64,000 nucleotides of DNA, taken from the NCBI RefSeq assembly GCF_010500615.1, contig NZ_JAAGNX010000002.1:610990-674989 (forward strand), given 5' to 3'. This document shows, piece after piece, positions 4,758-17,997 of the stretch. How positions within the stretch are numbered: position 1 is the first letter of the stretch; each line of letters opens with the position of its first letter. The notes under the pieces were generated by a model. It saw nothing but the letters and a program-made list of their open reading frames with translations, made no database searches and was not told where the DNA came from. Position numbers and translations under genes: made by a program. The stretch comes from Oceanipulchritudo coccoides. Lineage in GTDB: Bacteria > Verrucomicrobiota > Verrucomicrobiia > Opitutales > Oceanipulchritudinaceae.

Positions 4758-6661
4758 TGGATCTGGGAACCGTACTTTCGGGAATTTTGCTGGCACCGCT
4801 AATCGCTGCCGGCCTGATCTGGATGTTTGCCCGCCAGCGGGCCGGTCTTGCAATGGCGCTTTCGCTCGCTGCTGCAGCCACCATCCTCGGTTTGAGCGCA
4901 TGGCTTTTCTTCGGGCTTTGGAACGGTGAGGCCTACGAGGCCCAAGTCGAGTGGCTGACCCTGGGAAATTTCACGCTTTCAGTGGGCTTCCTGCTCAATG
5001 ACTTGAGCGCGCTCATGTTATTCGTGGTTTCATTCGTCGGCTTCTGGATTCACTTGTTCAGTGTCGGGTATATGACCGATGACGGTGCACGCGGACGGTT
5101 TTTCGGTGGCTTATCAATTTTCATGTTCTCGATGCTGGGGATCGTCCTCGCCAACAATCTTTTCATGATGTTCATCTTCTGGGAACTGGTCGGCTTCAGT
5201 TCCTACATGTTGATTGGCCACTACCTGAAAACACAAGAGGCCTCGGATGCATCGAAGAAGGCCTTCATCGTGAACCGGGTGGGGGACTTCGGATTCCTGA
5301 TCGGAATTATCCTCACTTTCTGGACCTTTGGTACGGTTTCTCTCAGTGAGCTGGCCGTCCAGACATCGCTCCAGCCCGAGCTGGTGACAACTCTTGGTGC
5401 GCTTCTCCTTTTCTGCGGGGTTCTCGGCAAGTCCGCGCAAATGCCGCTGCACGTCTGGTTGCCCGATGCAATGGCGGGCCCGACACCCATTTCCGCCTTG
5501 ATCCATGCCGCAACAATGGTGGCCGCCGGGGTTTATTTCCTTGGGCGTACCGTGACTCTTTTCACTCCCGAAGCACTGACTACTGTCGCCTGGGTGGGAG
5601 TTGTGACCGCAGTCTGCGCTGCAATCTGGGCCTTCGGCCAGCGCGACATCAAGAAGATCCTTGCCTATTCGACGCTGTCCCAACTCGGTTACATGGTGGC
5701 AGGCTTTGGTCTGGGAACCCTTTACGGATTGCACCACGGAGATTCAGCGACCGCACTTTACTACGGCATTGGCGCATCGATGTTCCACTTGACAACGCAT
5801 GCCTTTTTCAAGGCGCTCCTGTTCCTTGGATCCGGTTCGGTGATCCATGCCTGCCATCACGAGCAGGATATTTTCAAGATGGGTGGCCTGTACAAGAAAA
5901 TGCCTTTGACGACCCTGACCTTTGGCGCGGGCGTGATCGCGATTGCCGGAATTCCTTTTATTGCCTCAGCCTTTTTCAGTAAGGATGCGATCCTTTATGT
6001 GGCCAAGTCCACCAGCCAGCCGGCATTTATTATCCTCACGGGAACGGCGCTCCTGACCGCCCTTTACATGGGCCGACTATTTGTCATCGCCTTCCTGGGC
6101 AAGCCCAACAGCGAATCCGCGGAGCATGCCCATGAATCCTCATGGACGATGGTCCTGCCCCTTGTTGTGCTTGCGGTTTTCTCGATTGGGGGCGGCTACC
6201 TCGTCATGTATCCAGAGGCCCTCCAAGTTTTGATTGGTACCTGGGTCCCGCATCCGCACGGAGCAGACCACACCCTGATGATCATCATCTCCACGGTCGC
6301 TTCCTTCGGCGGATTGATACTTGCCCGTATCATTTACGGTGCCGGCTCAACAACGGACACCCTCGAGGCCAAGATTCCGCCGGTTTACGCATTGGCAAAG
6401 TCGCGTTTCTATTTTGACGAGATGTACAACGGCTATGTCCGGTTGATCCAGGATCGCGTGGCCAACATTATCGGCTTTTTCGATACACTTTTCATTTCCG
6501 GCATGCTTGTCCGTGGATCGGCCGGTTTGGCTGGTTTGCTTGGCATAGCAGCCCGGCGTATGCACACCGGCAGTGTCGCCACCTACGTCTGGTGGTTTTT
6601 TGCCGGCCTTGTTCTTTTCGGCGCTTATGCCGGTGGGTTTCTTGATAGGATTTTCCAATGA
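4757..6661 (+). CDS. nuoL: NADH-quinone oxidoreductase subunit L
   Basis: NuoL is the distal antiporter-like proton pump of complex I, with a long lateral helix. The 634-residue protein is polytopic. It has the Proton_antipo core, including the stretch PDAMAGPTPISALIHAATMV near residue 240 and a preceding Lys/Glu set (FWELVGFSSYMLIG near residue 140). The C-terminal part contains the expected amphipathic region before a last transmembrane helix. The final stop overlaps the nuoM start by 4 nt. Family length is about 610-650, so it is complete. Confidence 0.97.
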   Translation: MDLGTVLSGILLAPLIAAGLIWMFARQRAGLAMALSLAAAATILGLSAWLFFGLWNGEAYEAQVEWLTLGNFTLSVGFLLNDLSALMLFVVSFVGFWIHLFSVGYMTDDGARGRFFGGLSIFMFSMLGIVLANNLFMMFIFWELVGFSSYMLIGHYLKTQEASDASKKAFIVNRVGDFGFLIGIILTFWTFGTVSLSELAVQTSLQPELVTTLGALLLFCGVLGKSAQMPLHVWLPDAMAGPTPISALIHAATMVAAGVYFLGRTVTLFTPEALTTVAWVGVVTAVCAAIWAFGQRDIKKILAYSTLSQLGYMVAGFGLGTLYGLHHGDSATALYYGIGASMFHLTTHAFFKALLFLGSGSVIHACHHEQDIFKMGGLYKKMPLTTLTFGAGVIAIAGIPFIASAFFSKDAILYVAKSTSQPAFIILTGTALLTALYMGRLFVIAFLGKPNSESAEHAHESSWTMVLPLVVLAVFSIGGGYLVMYPEALQVLIGTWVPHPHGADHTLMIIISTVASFGGLILARIIYGAGSTTDTLEAKIPPVYALAKSRFYFDEMYNGYVRLIQDRVANIIGFFDTLFISGMLVRGSAGLAGLLGIAARRMHTGSVATYVWWFFAGLVLFGAYAGGFLDRIFQ

Positions 6662-8250
6662 CACAGCACTTGCCAATAGCCTCCACGGGAGGGATGTGTG
6701 ACTTTTTCCGAACCATTGGAGAGAGTTATCCGGTCCTGCATTCCTATCTGGTCATTTTTGCGATCGCGATTCCCCTGATCATGGCCCTTTCGCTGGCTGT
6801 TTCAGGCAAGCTTCCTGCAAGCGTCGTGAAAGTGAGCGGGATTCTGGGTTTTCTTGTTCCCGGTCTGATCAGTCTCTGGCTGGCGGGTGTTTACCTCTCC
6901 AGTGGTTACAACGGACTTTATGCGTTTCCTGTCATTGCCGACCTTGGGCTTGAACAATTTGGGATTCGCCTCCATCTCGGCCTCAACGGTCTGGCCCTGC
7001 CATTTTATGTCCTCTCCGGGATTGTTGGTTTGGCGGCTGGCCTTTACGCCGTGCAGAGCGGTGTTGAACGCCTGCGCCTGATGTTGATTCTTTTGCTGAT
7101 CATGCAGGCTGGCCTGATGGGGGTTTTCTCCTCGGTGGATATTCTCTTCTTCTATTTTTTCCACGAATTCGCCCTTATTCCGACCTTTGTCATGATTGCC
7201 ATCTGGGGCCGTTCCGGTCGCCGGGCGGTTGCGCTTGAAGTGACGATCTACCTCACCCTTGGTGCGATGATCACCCTGGCCGGCTTGATTGCCCTCTACA
7301 TTTTCAGTGGAGCCAGCGATTTCAACATGATTGCCCTTCGTGACGCGGTTGTTGCCGCTCCCCGGCAGGGAACAATCTTTGGCCTGTTGCTGATCGGGTT
7401 TGGTGTCCTTGTTTCCCTTTTCCCTTTTCACACCTGGGCTCCCCGGGCCTATGCGACTGCGCCTGCGCCTGCAGCAATGCTGCATGCCGGTGTGCTTAAG
7501 AAGTTCGGGCTTTATGGCTTGATCCAGATTGCCTATCCCATCCTGCCACAGGGTGTAGCTGACTGGGCACCGCTCCTTCTCATTCTGGCGCTTGGTAACG
7601 TGCTTATAATCGGTTTTGTGACCATGGCCCAGCGTGACCTGAAGTTGATGCTTGGGAATGCCTCGGTCATGCACATGGGATACGCCTTTCTCGGACTGTA
7701 CGCCTATTCGAGCATTGGTATCGGGGCCGCTGTCCTGATGCTGTTTGCGCACGGACTTTCAGTTGCCTTGCTGTTCCTCCTTGCGGATGTCGTCGAGAAA
7801 CGCGGTGGGACCTGTGACATGGAAGAAATAGGAGGACTTGGGCAGAAGGCACCGGTCCTCATGAGTTTGTTTGTTGCGGCCATGCTGGCCAGTATCGGCC
7901 TGCCGGGATTTGCCAATTTCTGGGGCGAGCTTGGAATCTTTGTTTCGCTCTTTGCCACCGCCACACCGTGGGCGCTATATCTGGCCCTGATCGGAATCCT
8001 CATTTCCGCAATTTACGGATTACGGGCAATCGCTTCCGTCTTCTTCGGAGAGGAAAAGGGCGAGCTATCCGGCGGCGACATCAGCTGGCGCGAGAAAATA
8101 CCGGCCCTCCTGTTGCTTGCATTTCTTTTACTCATCGGGATCTGGCCCAAGCTCTTGTCAGATCCTGTCAATGAAAGTGTCACCCGAACCTTTGCCGATA
8201 GTGCTCCCACGATGGTTGTCCCTTCCGGTGAGTTTTCCCTGACCAAATAA
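6658..8250 (+). CDS. nuoM: NADH-quinone oxidoreductase subunit M
   Basis: NuoM is the middle antiporter-like subunit and pumps protons. The 530-residue polytopic protein has the characteristic FHEFALIPTFVMI segment near residue 167 and the core APAPAAMLHAGVLKKFGLYG near residue 268, with the buried lysine. The chosen ATG overlaps the end of nuoL (ATGA). The first ~20 residues are unusual for the family (a Thr/Gly-rich segment containing a Cys) before the first membrane span, so a later start is possible, but no better-placed ATG with a ribosome site was evident. Confidence 0.96.
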   Translation: MTQHLPIASTGGMCDFFRTIGESYPVLHSYLVIFAIAIPLIMALSLAVSGKLPASVVKVSGILGFLVPGLISLWLAGVYLSSGYNGLYAFPVIADLGLEQFGIRLHLGLNGLALPFYVLSGIVGLAAGLYAVQSGVERLRLMLILLLIMQAGLMGVFSSVDILFFYFFHEFALIPTFVMIAIWGRSGRRAVALEVTIYLTLGAMITLAGLIALYIFSGASDFNMIALRDAVVAAPRQGTIFGLLLIGFGVLVSLFPFHTWAPRAYATAPAPAAMLHAGVLKKFGLYGLIQIAYPILPQGVADWAPLLLILALGNVLIIGFVTMAQRDLKLMLGNASVMHMGYAFLGLYAYSSIGIGAAVLMLFAHGLSVALLFLLADVVEKRGGTCDMEEIGGLGQKAPVLMSLFVAAMLASIGLPGFANFWGELGIFVSLFATATPWALYLALIGILISAIYGLRAIASVFFGEEKGELSGGDISWREKIPALLLLAFLLLIGIWPKLLSDPVNESVTRTFADSAPTMVVPSGEFSLTK

Positions 8251-8251
8251 G

Positions 8252-9766
8252 ATGGAAACTGAAACCCTTCAATCCGTTGTCAGCACCAACCAATGGGGTG
8301 CGCTCCTGCCGGAAATCATTCTTGGTTGCTTTGCCGTCCTGATCCTTTTCGTCGACTTGCTTGCACCCAGGACCCGACCTCATTTATCCAGCCTGTCCAT
8401 TCTGGCGCAATTGATTGCTGGAGCAGTCCTTATTCTGGGAATGCAGGCAAATGCGTCCCGTGATGGGGCAGAGGTTCTCTTTGCGGGCCTGATTGCCCAG
8501 GAAAGTACAGCGGACTGGATGCGCCTTTTCTTCCTGCTGTCCTCAATCATCATCACGCACTTGGGATCAGTATTCCTGAAAAAGCAGAAGTTGGCCCATG
8601 TTGAATTCTATCATCTCGTCCTGATTGTCTCAGCTGCGTTCATGCTGCTAGTGCAGACGCACCACTTTATCTCCCTTTTTGTTGTCCTCGAAACCCTGAC
8701 GGTTGGTTTCTACATCCTGGTCGCCTACAAACGCGACAGCCGCCTGTCACTCGAAGCCGGACTCAAGTATTTGATCATGGCGGCTTTCAGTTCAGGGATT
8801 TTCCTCTTCGGGGTTGCCCTCCTTTATGGAGCTGCCAGTAATCCGGCCCTCCCCATGACGGCTACCAGCCCGCTGAATTTTTCCGAGCTCACGGCCTTCA
8901 TCAGCGCCTCGAATGATTTGTTCAACAACAGCACCAACTACATGGTCCTTTTTGGATCAGTGCTCGTCCTAACCGGGATCGCTTTCAAAATCGGGGTTGT
9001 TCCATTTCAAATCTGGATTCCGGATGTCTATCAAGGCGCACCGACACCGGTGACCGCATTCCTTGCCGTCTCTTCCAAGGCCGCCGGGTTCTATCTGCTT
9101 TACCTGCTTCTGCGGGGTCCATTTGCGGCCCTTGAGCATGTCACGGTTCCCCTGCTGACCGTCATTGCCATCCTGACGCTCCTTTTCGGCAACATTGCTG
9201 CACTCGGGCAACGGAATGTGAAGCGCGTCATGGGCATGTCCGGTGTGGCGCATGCCGGTATCCTGCTTATGGGCTTGCTCGCCTCCCTGACAGTCGACTG
9301 GGCCTTTGCCGCGGTATTATTCTATCTGGTCACTTACGCCCTCGCGTCCTTTGGCGTCTTTGAGGTGATGGTCCATGTGGCAGAAAGCAACGATGCCGAC
9401 CAGGATCTCGACCTGTACGACAACCTGCTCAAGAAGGATCCCTATCTGGGCGGAATCCTCCTCATCAGCCTCGGTTCGCTGGCTGGAATCCCGCCATTGG
9501 CAGGCTTTATTGCCAAGCTATTGGTCTTTATCGCAGCGTTTCAGGCCGGGCTTTACCCTGTGCTCGGAGTAGCGCTGGCTGGGGTTGTGATTTCCATTTA
9601 CTACTACTTCGGCTGGATGCGGTCCGCCGCCATGGGAAATCCCTATCTCGCGGAGGATGCTGCCAAGGCCATTACTTCACCGGCTTTAAGCGCACGCCTG
9701 GTCATGGGCCTGCTCGCCGGGGCAACCATCCTTTTCGGATTCTACCAGGGCTTCTTCGCGTTCTAG
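8252..9766 (+). CDS. nuoN: NADH-quinone oxidoreductase subunit N
   Basis: NuoN is the antiporter-like subunit closest to the quinone arm and completes the membrane domain. The 504-residue protein has about 14 spans, the FVVLETLTVGFYILVAY segment with the conserved Glu near residue 145, and the core FKIGVVPFQIWIPDVYQGAP near residue 248. It starts one base after the nuoM stop and is the last gene of the operon. A short perfect hairpin (9766-9782) overlaps the stop codon, but no T-run follows it, so a classic intrinsic terminator is not evident. Confidence 0.96.
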   Translation: METETLQSVVSTNQWGALLPEIILGCFAVLILFVDLLAPRTRPHLSSLSILAQLIAGAVLILGMQANASRDGAEVLFAGLIAQESTADWMRLFFLLSSIIITHLGSVFLKKQKLAHVEFYHLVLIVSAAFMLLVQTHHFISLFVVLETLTVGFYILVAYKRDSRLSLEAGLKYLIMAAFSSGIFLFGVALLYGAASNPALPMTATSPLNFSELTAFISASNDLFNNSTNYMVLFGSVLVLTGIAFKIGVVPFQIWIPDVYQGAPTPVTAFLAVSSKAAGFYLLYLLLRGPFAALEHVTVPLLTVIAILTLLFGNIAALGQRNVKRVMGMSGVAHAGILLMGLLASLTVDWAFAAVLFYLVTYALASFGVFEVMVHVAESNDADQDLDLYDNLLKKDPYLGGILLISLGSLAGIPPLAGFIAKLLVFIAAFQAGLYPVLGVALAGVVISIYYYFGWMRSAAMGNPYLAEDAAKAITSPALSARLVMGLLAGATILFGFYQGFFAF

Positions 9767-9825
9767 ATCCCGGTTCGGGATCAGAGGTGGCCAGAGGGAT
9801 CTCCTTCGTTTCAGATTATACATTC

Positions 9826-9876
9826 TTGACGCACGATAAAATGCATGCAAAATGCATGCAATAAATTGAGTGCATA
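9826..9876 (+). promoter_or_regulatory. Promoter and operator-like repeat of the toxin-antitoxin pair
   Basis: A -35-like TTGACG (9826-9831) is followed after 16 bp by CAAAAT (9848-9853), a plausible -10. Overlapping this is a tandem repeat of AAATGCATGCAA (9839-9850 and 9850-9861). Each copy has an 8-bp perfect palindrome TGCATGCA, and the two palindromes are 11 bp apart, one helical turn. A third partial copy, TGCAT, follows at 9871-9875. Ribbon-helix-helix antitoxins of this family usually repress their own promoter from such repeats. Autoregulation here is inferred. Confidence 0.55.
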
Positions 9877-9883
9877 AAGAACA

Positions 9884-10117
9884 ATGAGAACCATGACGAT
9901 ACGGAATGTGCCTGATGAAACCTACAAGGGTCTACAGGAGATGGCCCGGGCTAACCACAGGAGCCTTCAGGAGCAGGTGCGGCTCATGCTCACCGAGGAA
10001 GTCGAGCTGAGAAATCCGTCTGTGTGCGAGCAGGCGGCCGCCTACCGGGCCCACTTATCCGGGCGAAATCCTGCCAAGACAGTCATTGAAGACCTTCGAG
10101 AAGACCGTTCACGATGA
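9884..10117 (+). CDS. Ribbon-helix-helix antitoxin (FitA/VapB-like)
   Basis: Predicted antitoxin that neutralises the PIN toxin encoded next to it and binds its own promoter. The 77-residue protein starts with a ribbon-helix-helix pattern: a short strand MTIRNVPDETY followed by two helices containing MARANHRSLQEQVRLML. This resembles FitA-like (Arc-type) antitoxins. The C-terminal part is charged and probably wraps the toxin. ATG 9893 (fourth codon) is an alternative start. The stop overlaps the toxin start by 4 nt (10114-10117), the typical antitoxin-first arrangement. It is isolated from the flanking nuo and pan operons, as expected for a mobile module. Confidence 0.85.
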   Translation: MRTMTIRNVPDETYKGLQEMARANHRSLQEQVRLMLTEEVELRNPSVCEQAAAYRAHLSGRNPAKTVIEDLREDRSR

Positions 10118-10530
10118 TTGCTGTTGTTGATACTTCAGCAGTGCTTCGGATGTTTATTCCGGACGGGCCCATTCCCGATGGGTTAGAAGCTTTTTTCCGA
10201 GGCGTTGAGACTGGGGCCAATTTGGCCATTGCCCCGGAGTTGCTGCTGGTGGAAGCCCTGAATGTCGTGGTTAAGAAGCATCGCCGGGAAGAGTTGACGA
10301 CTGAAGAGGCAGAAAGCCTGATGAGCTTACTCCGGCAAATGCCCATCCGCTATTACGGGCACCTGCCATACGGTTCCCGGGCCTGCCATCTGGCCATCGA
10401 AACCGGACTCTCGGGCTATGATGCAATTTTTCTGGCCCTTGCCCTTGATCGGGGGGTGCCATTGTTTACTGCTGATCATCAACTGGAGGCTGTTGCGTCC
10501 AGAAAAGGAATCGGCCGGCCTCGGGGCTAG
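10114..10530 (+). CDS. vapC: PIN-domain toxin, VapC-like ribonuclease
   Basis: VapC toxins are Mg-dependent RNases that cleave tRNA or rRNA. The 138-residue protein is a single PIN domain of normal length. The acidic active-site set appears to be Asp6 (VVDTSA), Glu42 or Glu47, Asp103 (GYDAIFLALA) and Asp121 (LFTADHQL), so the toxin looks catalytically intact. It is translated in overlap with the antitoxin. The exact family name (VapC or FitB) cannot be settled from sequence by eye, and the RNA target is unknown. Confidence 0.87.
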   Translation: MIAVVDTSAVLRMFIPDGPIPDGLEAFFRGVETGANLAIAPELLLVEALNVVVKKHRREELTTEEAESLMSLLRQMPIRYYGHLPYGSRACHLAIETGLSGYDAIFLALALDRGVPLFTADHQLEAVASRKGIGRPRG

Positions 10531-10735
10531 CGCTAAATACCCAATCGACGATTGAGGCTTGATATCCAGCCGAAAATGGAGTCCATTTCCCTCCTTGCGC
10601 ATACTGGAATTCTCCAGATGCGACTTTGAAATCAGTCTATTTAGTTTTAATTCCCGTATTTGAAAGGACTTGATCGATGCGACAGGTACCCAGAAAGCGA
10701 GCCATTGGCTCCATAAAAGACGAAGGGGGTCACTC

Positions 10736-11548
10736 ATGAAGAGTGTGACCGACTTTTCCCGCTACCATTCCGAAGGGCAGCCCATTTCCATGGTGACCTG
10801 CTACGATGCATGGAGCGCCCGACTGATTGCGGAAACCAACGTGGATGCGGTCCTTGTGGGCGACAGCGTGGCCATGGTCATGCACGGGCATCCGTCAACT
10901 GTTCACGCGACCACCGATATGATGGCGAGCCACACGGCGGCGGTCCGGCGCGGAATCGGCGATCGCTTTGTAACCACCGACATCCCCTTCCCTGAGCATC
11001 GCAAGGGTCTCCGGGGCGCGATGGAGTCAGTGGACACGATCATGAAGGCGGGGGCAAATGCTGTGAAAATTGAAGGGGCCCAAGGGCATCTCGATGTGAT
11101 CCGGCACATTGTCCAGAGCGGTGTCCCCGTCATGGGGCATTTGGGACTGACGCCGCAATCCGTTAATCTAATGGGCGGTTACCGGGTTCAGGGAAGAGAG
11201 GCCGCCGCCGCTCAGCAAATTGAACTGGATGCCCTGGCTCTTCAGGAGGCTGGTGTATACGCCTTGGTCCTGGAATGTGTTCCGGCAGAGCTGGCTGCCC
11301 GCGTGACAGAGTCGTTGAGCATCCCGACAATCGGGATAGGTTCAGGTCCCTCCTGCAGTGGACAGATTCTGGTTCTGCAAGATCTCCTGGGCATGAACCT
11401 TGGTTTCAAACCGAAGTTCCTCAGGACGTATGCCGAAGGATCTCAAAATATCATGCACGCGCTGAATAGCTATAACGAGGACGTGAAAGCGGGCTCATTC
11501 CCTTCACTGGAGGAAAGTTTTCATTATGAAACAACTCGCAAACATTAA
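10736..11548 (+). CDS. panB: 3-methyl-2-oxobutanoate hydroxymethyltransferase
   Basis: PanB transfers a hydroxymethyl group from methylenetetrahydrofolate to ketoisovalerate, the first committed step of pantothenate synthesis. The protein is a TIM barrel with MVTCYDAWSARLI, LVGDSVAMVMHGH (metal and substrate site) and GHLGLTPQ. The frame is open upstream to 10670. I chose ATG 10736 because AAGGGGG lies just upstream and the resulting 270 residues match the family (~264). The 3' end overlaps panC by 23 nt. The 205 bp upstream hold a weak TTGAAA (10626-10631) that could be a -35 element, with no convincing -10. Confidence 0.95.
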   Translation: MKSVTDFSRYHSEGQPISMVTCYDAWSARLIAETNVDAVLVGDSVAMVMHGHPSTVHATTDMMASHTAAVRRGIGDRFVTTDIPFPEHRKGLRGAMESVDTIMKAGANAVKIEGAQGHLDVIRHIVQSGVPVMGHLGLTPQSVNLMGGYRVQGREAAAAQQIELDALALQEAGVYALVLECVPAELAARVTESLSIPTIGIGSGPSCSGQILVLQDLLGMNLGFKPKFLRTYAEGSQNIMHALNSYNEDVKAGSFPSLEESFHYETTRKH

Positions 11549-13491: not shown

Positions 13492-16734
<3,243 letters not shown>

Positions 16735-16779: not shown

Positions 16780-17871
16780 CTATAGCTCGTCGTCATCAAC
16801 AACTTCAAGCGAGCTGGACTTCTGGTATTCCGTGACGCGCCCTTCGAAGAAATTCTGTTCTTTCTGGATATCCATCATCTCGGCGAGCCAGGGAAGTGGA
16901 TTTTTGACGCCGGGATTAATTGGCTGGAGGCCGACACTTTCGAGGCGGCGGTCCGCGATGTAGTCAATGTACTGGGTAAACTCGGAAGCACTGAGACCGA
17001 GGGCGTTGACTGGCAGGCAGTCTTCAATGAATTCTTTCTCAAGCCGGACGGCTTCTTTCATCAGGTCAACAAGCTCCGCCTGGAATTCCTTGGTCCAAAT
17101 GTCCGGGTTCTCCTCGATGAGATCCACGAAGAGGTTCTTGAAGACGGAAATATGGTTGGATTCATCCCGCAGGGTGTAGCGGAACATCTGCCCGATTCCC
17201 GGGAATTTGTTCTGTCTGTACAGGCTCAGGACCATGCCGAAGAGGCCGTAGAACTGGGTCCCTTCCATACACTGGCCAAACAGGAACATGTTCTTGGCCA
17301 GCTCCTGCTTGTTTTCAGTCTGTGTCAGGTCAATATCCCGTCGCAGTTGCCGGCTGTTGTTCACCACGAGTGAATTCTTGGCCTTGATCGTCGGGACATC
17401 CTCAAACATCGCCTCACACTCATGCGGGTTCAGCCCGAGGGAGCTGATCATGTAGACAAGGCTGTCCGCATGGATGTTTTCCTCGTGCGCATGGCGGCCG
17501 AGGACCAGCTTCAGTTCGGGGGCGGTCACGACCTCCCGGGTAACATGTAGGATATTATCGCCGACAATGCCTTCCGCGGCGCTGAAATACCCGATGGCCA
17601 TCTTGATGATCCAGCGGTCGATTTCAGAGATTGCCCCGGAGGTGTCGCGCCACTGCTCGACATCCTTCTGCATGGGCACATCTTCCGGCTCCCAGTGGTT
17701 GGCCTTCATTGTCTTGTAATGCTCGTAAGCCCACTGGTACTTCAACGGAAGAATGTTGAAGAACATGGTCTCCTTCCCGTTGATGACTTTCTTGGCCGAA
17801 AAGGCCGCTTCTGCTTTCTGTTTATCGAGTACGAATTCCTTGTTTCCGATTTTTACGACGGTCGTTTCCAT
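16780..17871 (-). CDS. nrdB: Ribonucleotide reductase beta subunit, class Ic-like (no radical tyrosine)
   Basis: The small subunit builds the oxidising cofactor that starts catalysis in NrdA. All six metal ligands can be placed: Glu100, Glu131, His134, Glu203, Glu237 and His240. Aligning EENIHADSLVY with the E. coli helix puts Leu138 where the radical Tyr should be. The first ligand is Glu100 instead of Asp, as in the chlamydial Mn/Fe enzyme, which has Phe at the radical position. Trp47 (YQWAYEHY) fits the radical-transfer Trp. The C-terminal acidic tail ending VVDDDEL would dock on NrdA. Length 363. I infer class Ic; the assignment as an R2 protein itself is firm. Confidence 0.95.
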   Translation of the reverse strand: METTVVKIGNKEFVLDKQKAEAAFSAKKVINGKETMFFNILPLKYQWAYEHYKTMKANHWEPEDVPMQKDVEQWRDTSGAISEIDRWIIKMAIGYFSAAEGIVGDNILHVTREVVTAPELKLVLGRHAHEENIHADSLVYMISSLGLNPHECEAMFEDVPTIKAKNSLVVNNSRQLRRDIDLTQTENKQELAKNMFLFGQCMEGTQFYGLFGMVLSLYRQNKFPGIGQMFRYTLRDESNHISVFKNLFVDLIEENPDIWTKEFQAELVDLMKEAVRLEKEFIEDCLPVNALGLSASEFTQYIDYIADRRLESVGLQPINPGVKNPLPWLAEMMDIQKEQNFFEGRVTEYQKSSSLEVVDDDEL

Positions 17872-17949: not shown

Positions 17950-17997
17950 CCCCAACATGTTGGGGTTGTTAAACTCAAATTGCACTAGATATGGTGT
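17950..17997 (-). promoter_or_regulatory. Tandem NrdR-box-like sites upstream of nrdBA
   Basis: Two 16-bp sites with start positions 32 bp apart. The site at 17982-17997 (GCACTAGATATGGTGT) matches the remembered NrdR consensus acaCwAtATaTwGtgt at 13 of 16 positions. The site at 17950-17965 (CCCCAACATGTTGGGG) is a perfect palindrome with 10 of 16 matches. NrdR boxes usually occur as such pairs about three helical turns apart in front of nrd operons. A TTGACA on the - strand (18000-17995) overlaps the distal box and could be a -35. The rest of the 318-bp gap (17872-18189) is AT-rich with no gene seen. nrdR itself is not in the window. Confidence 0.7.

Follow-up and report, generated by a model that had tools for sequence, protein, structure and literature searches.

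Subclass Ic of the class I ribonucleotide reductases (RNR) is described in PMC6370689 as comprising NrdBz proteins whose tyrosine site is occupied by Phe, Leu or Val. R2c proteins with Leu, Ile or Val are documented in PMC3824934 (citing Hogbom 2010), and PMC12918982 gives Phe or Leu for the Ic references and Ile or Val for the viral Ic-like proteins. The literature further covers class O, with Phe or Leu and closely resembling Ic (PMC9531940); Ic-like betas found in NrdAz and NrdAq (PMC9669993); and the haloarchaeal Phe type, described together with its gene order (PMC3019208).

The NrdB analysed here is encoded in a window of 64 kb of DNA (the whole stretch analysed) from Oceanipulchritudo coccoides, an Opitutales-like member of the Verrucomicrobiota, and carries Leu138 at the radical site and Glu100 as first metal ligand. 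The preliminary description considered Leu a further variant beyond the chlamydial Phe; PMC6370689, PMC3824934 and PMC12918982 already give Leu for Ic or R2c, and NrdB is an Ic-type R2 of a sort already described, the Leu type not being new.

The closest protein by both sequence and fold is the Chlamydia trachomatis R2c (Ct R2c; NrdB; structures 1syy, 4d8f and 4m1i), which shares the Glu first ligand, the tyrosine-less radical site, the same ligands, the Trp, Tyr222 and the C-terminal Tyr, and differs in having Phe127 in place of Leu138, in its identity of about 40% and in belonging to a separate clade. The runner-up by sequence and fold is PDB 6y2n, presumably the Saccharopolyspora erythraea R2c, itself Phe/Glu; unlike NrdB it is of the Phe type and groups beside Tyr-type R2s in the R2 tree. 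The residue rule and ligand row of NrdBzc in RNRdb (subclass Ic) are matched exactly. The viral R2s that are probably the marine Ic-like group of PMC12918982 are likewise tyrosine-less with a Glu first ligand, but have Val or Ile instead of Leu and form a clade of their own.

The nrdB-nrdA locus and the RNR genes of the genome

nrdB: 16780..17871, minus strand, ORF of 363 aa, R2 subunit, tyrosine-less (Leu138/Glu100)
nrdA: 13492..16734, minus strand, R1 subunit of 1080 aa (NF005544, 1226 bits, above cut-off)

The reading frame of nrdB lies on the minus strand and not on the strand initially given, the plus strand being interrupted by stops. Its product matches PF00268 (234.6 bits) and scores above the threshold of NF005550, an RNR beta subunit model. 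The gene order is nrdB-nrdA, with 45 bases between the two genes. NrdA comprises an ATP-cone (residues 163-248) and the barrel (496-1032), a second ATP-cone-like stretch appearing only under a lax threshold; its translation contains the motif TTYYLRT, which we take to be the Tyr pair on the radical-transfer path. This nrdB is the single R2 of the genome (52 contigs, 99.4% complete), in which two barrel R1s and no class III RNR were found. The second R1 is a class II B12-dependent RNR (L003:820-3759, minus strand, about 10 kb past the end of the window), and the genome thus has two RNR classes. An Rfam search of the 64-kb window gave no match, and all phage and plasmid matches to NrdB were below 60% identity.

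Two sites resembling NrdR boxes precede nrdB (scored against a 16-base consensus that we assume for these boxes):

17982..17997, minus strand, NrdR-box-like site 1, ACACCATATCTAGTGC, 126 bases before the ATG, 13/16 to consensus
17950..17965, minus strand, NrdR-box-like site 2, CCCCAACATGTTGGGG, 94 bases before the ATG, 10/16, strict core matched

The sites are 32 bases apart, resembling paired NrdR boxes; site 1 is one base short of the strict core, so that the window's own sites are not a strict-core pair. Of 78 relatives examined, 24 have a strict-core pair with 31-32 base spacing upstream of nrdB, and 56 have at least one strict core there; shuffled controls gave a pair in 0/800 stretches and a single core in 4/800. 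The genome contains an nrdR gene.

Radical site, metal ligands and predicted fold

The functional positions of NrdB, assigned from a phmmer alignment to Ct R2c and from the alignment of R2 sequences, are:

17692..17694, minus strand, Trp60 codon (Ct Trp51, transfer; phmmer and R2 alignment)
17572..17574, minus strand, Glu100 codon, first metal ligand (phmmer)
17479..17484, minus strand, Glu130 (second sphere) and Glu131 (ligand) codons (R2 alignment)
17470..17472, minus strand, His134 codon, ligand (R2 alignment)
17458..17460, minus strand, Leu138 codon, radical site (phmmer)
17452..17454, minus strand, Tyr140 codon (Ct Tyr129; phmmer and R2 alignment)
17263..17265, minus strand, Glu203 codon, ligand (R2 alignment)
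17176..17178, minus strand, Tyr232 codon (Ct Tyr222; phmmer and R2 alignment)
17161..17166, minus strand, Asp236 (second sphere) and Glu237 (ligand) codons (R2 alignment)
17152..17154, minus strand, His240 codon, ligand (R2 alignment)
16825..16827, minus strand, Tyr349 codon, C-terminal transfer Tyr (R2 alignment)

Tyr232 presumably has the role in activation that we ascribe to Ct Tyr222. Among PDB sequences, phmmer ranked Ct R2c (1syy/4d8f) at the top (E 3e-85), followed by 6y2n (5e-70), the remaining R2s scoring 3e-36 or weaker; E. coli R2 was alignable only from residue 184 onward. Residues 100-140 align with Ct R2c free of gaps, placing Glu100 on Glu89, Leu138 on Phe127 and Tyr140 on Tyr129 (Ct numbers counted from the phmmer alignment). 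The assignment of Leu138 to the radical Tyr position and of Glu100 to the first ligand, made in the preliminary description, is thereby confirmed, as is the presence of the remaining ligands and the transfer Trp, to which the R2 alignment adds the second-sphere acids and the C-terminal Tyr. Tyr140, whose placement at the radical site would have spoken against that description, was considered as the radical residue and ruled out in the sequence alignments: E. coli-type R2s of the same phylum (L161, L172 and L173) have Asp, Tyr and His at columns 100, 138 and 140, so that Tyr140 lies outside the radical position.

In terms of class, Leu138 on Ct Phe127 agrees with the subclass Ic residue rule of PMC6370689, and E100, E131, H134, E203, E237 and H240, together with E130 and D236, reproduce exactly the Ic row in Table 4 of that source. 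Trp60, Tyr349 and the adjoining nrdA are features that would be expected of a functional class I R2. Class Ia (Tyr with an Asp first ligand) does not fit Leu138 and Glu100, nor does class Id (Tyr kept, Glu, Cys/Ser in the second sphere) fit Leu138 and Glu130.

The AlphaFold model of NrdB has a mean pLDDT of 82.3 with residues 334-363 unreliable; it was obtained with a deeper alignment and replaced a poor first model (pLDDT 69). Compared with known structures, the predicted fold is closest to Ct R2c (Z 40.5, 325 residues, rmsd 3.0), followed by 6y2n (Z 38.1), E. coli R2 (about 33) and class Id (about 31), and the Foldseek ranking was concordant. Because the structure search yields ranges and not residue pairs, the residues were assigned from the sequence alignments.

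Conservation of Leu138 and Glu100

Leu138 and Glu100 are present in 112/112 aligned rows (the query counted three times and some genomes twice) and therefore reflect neither chance nor sequencing error; all the ligands, Trp60, Tyr140, Tyr232 and Tyr349 are equally invariant in these rows. Leu at the radical site is not peculiar to this genome: it is fixed throughout a clade that extends across Verrucomicrobiota. Of the genomes searched, 175/273 in the order and 125/387 in the phylum contained a match to the query, counts that take in Phe-type and distant R2s.

Extending the survey to 182 unique R2s gave 143 Leu/Glu, 18 Phe/Glu, 20 Tyr/Asp and one Leu/Gln sequences. Of the 143 Leu/Glu rows, 140 retain Trp60, Tyr232 and Tyr349; the exceptions are L139, which is divergent, and two tandem paralogues. 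Scanning for viral relatives with the query found none, and with the Leu alignment only one distant Tyr-type R2 (L322) and no Leu-type; a scan with a mixed alignment returned 451 relatives, of which the best 80 were kept, and Leu-type R2s were absent from these 80. The resulting 81 viral R2s (the best 80 of 451, plus L322) comprised 54 Val/Glu, 20 Ile/Glu, two Phe/Glu and five Tyr/Asp, that is, Val or Ile with Glu in 74/81 loci, which we infer to be the viral group of PMC12918982. In seven of the viral Ile R2s (within L243-L321, among the best 80 of 451), Tyr140 is replaced by His.

Pooling both sets (263 R2s, the viral part restricted to the best 80 of 451 plus L322), each intact non-Tyr R2 has Glu100 (Leu 143, Phe 20, Val 54, Ile 20) and the Tyr rows have Asp in 25/25; the lone exception, the Leu/Gln row, is a paralogue without its ligands. 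Seven added outgroup R2s were six Tyr/Asp and one Tyr/Glu (L231, the class Id pairing), and four added plasmid R2s were two Phe/Glu, of which L239 duplicates L199, and two Tyr/Asp. The census and L231 show that an inert residue at 138 accompanies Glu100, yet Glu alone does not entail loss of the Tyr.

Members of other Verrucomicrobiota families (L140-L151) have, in place of the Leu type, Chlamydia-like Phe/Glu R2s that cluster with Ct R2c. Two contigs labelled Fimbriimonadaceae and Armatimonadetes (L056 and L106) carry Leu-type R2s with 77-79% identity to the query, reflecting either transfer or mis-binning. One genome (G451) has two Leu-type R2s on different contigs (L170 and L171; 78% and 77% identity). 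Tandem paralogues also occur: L134:6411-7532 (plus strand) and its L135 counterpart are second R2s with 50-53% identity to the query, Leu138 and all ligands, and changes of Tyr140 to His, Tyr232 to Asn and Phe211 to His; L136:5302-6516 (plus strand) is an intact tandem paralogue preceding a Leu-type nrdB (6565-7650) and nrdA (8176-11442), with 44-46% identity to the query, lost ligands (100 Q, 134 R, 237 V, 240 R) and Val for Tyr349. The latter appears to be a bacterial equivalent of ligand-less beta-prime subunits such as yeast Rnr4.

Phylogeny and possible origin of the tyrosine-less state

The R1 tree placed the Leu-lineage alphas in one clade (100/99), sister to the Phe-type and Tyr z-type alphas (95/88), the three jointly at 100/100 with the other class I alphas outside. 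A second R1 tree (in which L238 is labelled with the Tyr set though Phe) had the same topology (sister group 94/89; the three jointly 100/99), the Tyr-type alphas adjoining the Phe-type of Methylocella and Aureimonas (100/99). Adding viral alphas gave the same picture, with the long-branched viral Phe row L249 weakly in the Leu clade (82/87). After omission of long rows and with stricter columns, the order of Leu, Phe and Tyr was unresolved, viral Val/Ile branched off first (82/93) and the Tyr rows formed a clade in just 74% of the bootstrap trees. Several trees contain long outgroup branches, and C. trachomatis itself is only in the R2 trees.

Approximately unbiased (AU) tests of the tyrosine-less R1s as one clade gave p 0.007, 0.004 with viral alphas and 0.21 with long rows omitted and stricter columns; the corresponding value for tyrosine-less R2s was 0.16. 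Since the outcome varies with the choice of rows and columns, the contention that the tyrosine-less R1s cannot be monophyletic is not firm and was dropped in view of the values of 0.21 (R1) and 0.16 (R2). In the R2 trees (one with every fourth Leu row and the ligand-less paralogue omitted, the others, like the R1 trees, with hand-picked rows), Leu R2s form one clade apart from the Phe and Tyr z clade and join distant Tyr outgroups on long branches, a weak placement that we do not trust; a single clade of Leu, Phe and Tyr z R2s was not rejected (AU, p 0.22). The tight cluster of tyrosine-less NrdBs presented in PMC4390871 is not supported by the present trees. Polyphyly of R2c is itself not new, PMC3824934 having reported an earlier tree that contains it.

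Gene order was nrdB-nrdA in 18/18 Leu loci checked, as opposed to nrdA-nrdB in 13/13 Phe-type loci with both genes in view (C. trachomatis not among them; L210, with no nrdA in view, not counted) and in 2/3 Tyr loci. At 38 alignment columns, among them residue 138 and three gap columns at the C terminus, the Leu rows are nearly invariant and differ from the Phe rows, with which the Tyr z rows agree at most of these columns; the marking residues in ligand and radical-site helices include Gly101, Asn132, Gln206 and Thr233. The Leu lineage is a separate, deep one in the trees, and gene order and the 38 columns set it apart independently. The class Ic-like assignment of the preliminary description stands by all sequence criteria tested, but the protein does not belong to the chlamydial Phe group, the Leu rows being a clade of their own outside it in every tree.

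The Pseudomonas aeruginosa-type Tyr enzymes nest among tyrosine-less ones, which would fit an ancestral tyrosine-less state and one regain of Tyr. A binary count of Tyr against no Tyr needs two changes (R1 tree without long rows, stricter columns), and a scenario of losses only needs four or five (read from the R1 tree with viral alphas). We tentatively propose, as a possibility that is still doubtful, that in the clade of the Chlamydia and P. aeruginosa types the tyrosine-less, metal-centred Glu state was ancestral and a tyrosyl radical, together with Asp, arose again a single time; a literature search covering few subscription papers returned nothing pertinent on a regained tyrosine. If so, the ancestral state would have been kept as Leu in Verrucomicrobiota, as Val/Ile in marine viruses and as Phe in the Chlamydia-like and archaeal enzymes, and the Leu enzymes would be early-branching, without a tyrosyl radical since that ancestor and no product of late loss.

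Proposed cofactor and alternative readings

From the residues, their conservation, the operon with its NrdR-like boxes, the nrdR gene, the sole R2 of the genome and the predicted fold, we consider NrdB to be the functional small subunit of a class I RNR, tyrosine-less (class Ic) and with a Mn/Fe centre, with a probability of roughly three in four. The metals, their oxidation states and the hole route are taken from C. trachomatis, by analogy with which NrdB would use a Mn(IV)/Fe(III) cofactor: two metal ions would be held by four Glu and two His; O2 would oxidise these ions in their reduced state, most probably Mn(II)/Fe(II), yielding Mn(IV)/Fe(III); the Mn(IV) of site 1 would replace the tyrosyl radical; and in each turnover the hole would pass through Trp60, Tyr349 and the NrdA Tyr pair to the catalytic Cys. 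Leu138 would act as a redox-inert filler in place of Tyr, and Glu100 as the ligand accompanying all such fillers.

According to PMC4118035, metal identity cannot be inferred from the ligand set; a search of the genome for Nramp-type Mn importers found none, which counts against Mn/Fe; and a literature search covering few subscription papers found neither a purified Leu-type R2c nor its measured metals. The 38 columns separating the Leu lineage from the Phe type, some of them in ligand and radical-site helices, mean that Leu-type chemistry could differ. A tyrosine-less enzyme with a Mn(IV)/Mn(III) or a high-valent di-iron oxidant is unlikely: this lineage does stand apart from the characterised Ic enzymes, and class Id, a Mn2(IV,III) enzyme, also has a Glu first ligand (PMC6754362, PMC8463856), but in class Id the Tyr is retained and the second-sphere column, where NrdB has Glu130, is Cys/Ser (Table 4 of PMC6370689), and class Id structures (Z about 31) rank below Ct R2c (Z about 40) for the NrdB model.

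That NrdB might be a dead or structural, beta-prime-like R2 relying on another R2 finds a precedent in the ligand-less tandem paralogues of the phylum (L136); it is very improbable for the sole R2 of a genome, with ligands and transfer residues conserved and a position directly before nrdA. The R2-like ligand-binding oxidases (R2lox), which are no RNR subunits, also combine absence of the Tyr with a Glu first ligand (PMC4118035, PMC3824934), but are characterised by the lack of a C-terminal Tyr and of an R1 partner; Tyr349 and the adjacent nrdA, R2lox models scoring at most 45 bits, far under their cut-offs, and the passed NF005550 threshold leave this reading with almost no weight. The Mn/Fe class Ic reading is the one that we retain.

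Biological significance

These results suggest that a large phylum of mostly free-living bacteria routinely starts ribonucleotide reduction from a metal centre alone, and that tyrosine-less RNR is thus no peculiarity of intracellular pathogens. The Leu lineage offers a natural test of whether Mn/Fe chemistry requires no more than a Glu ligand and an inert residue of any kind, and also of the evolutionary regain of the tyrosyl radical.
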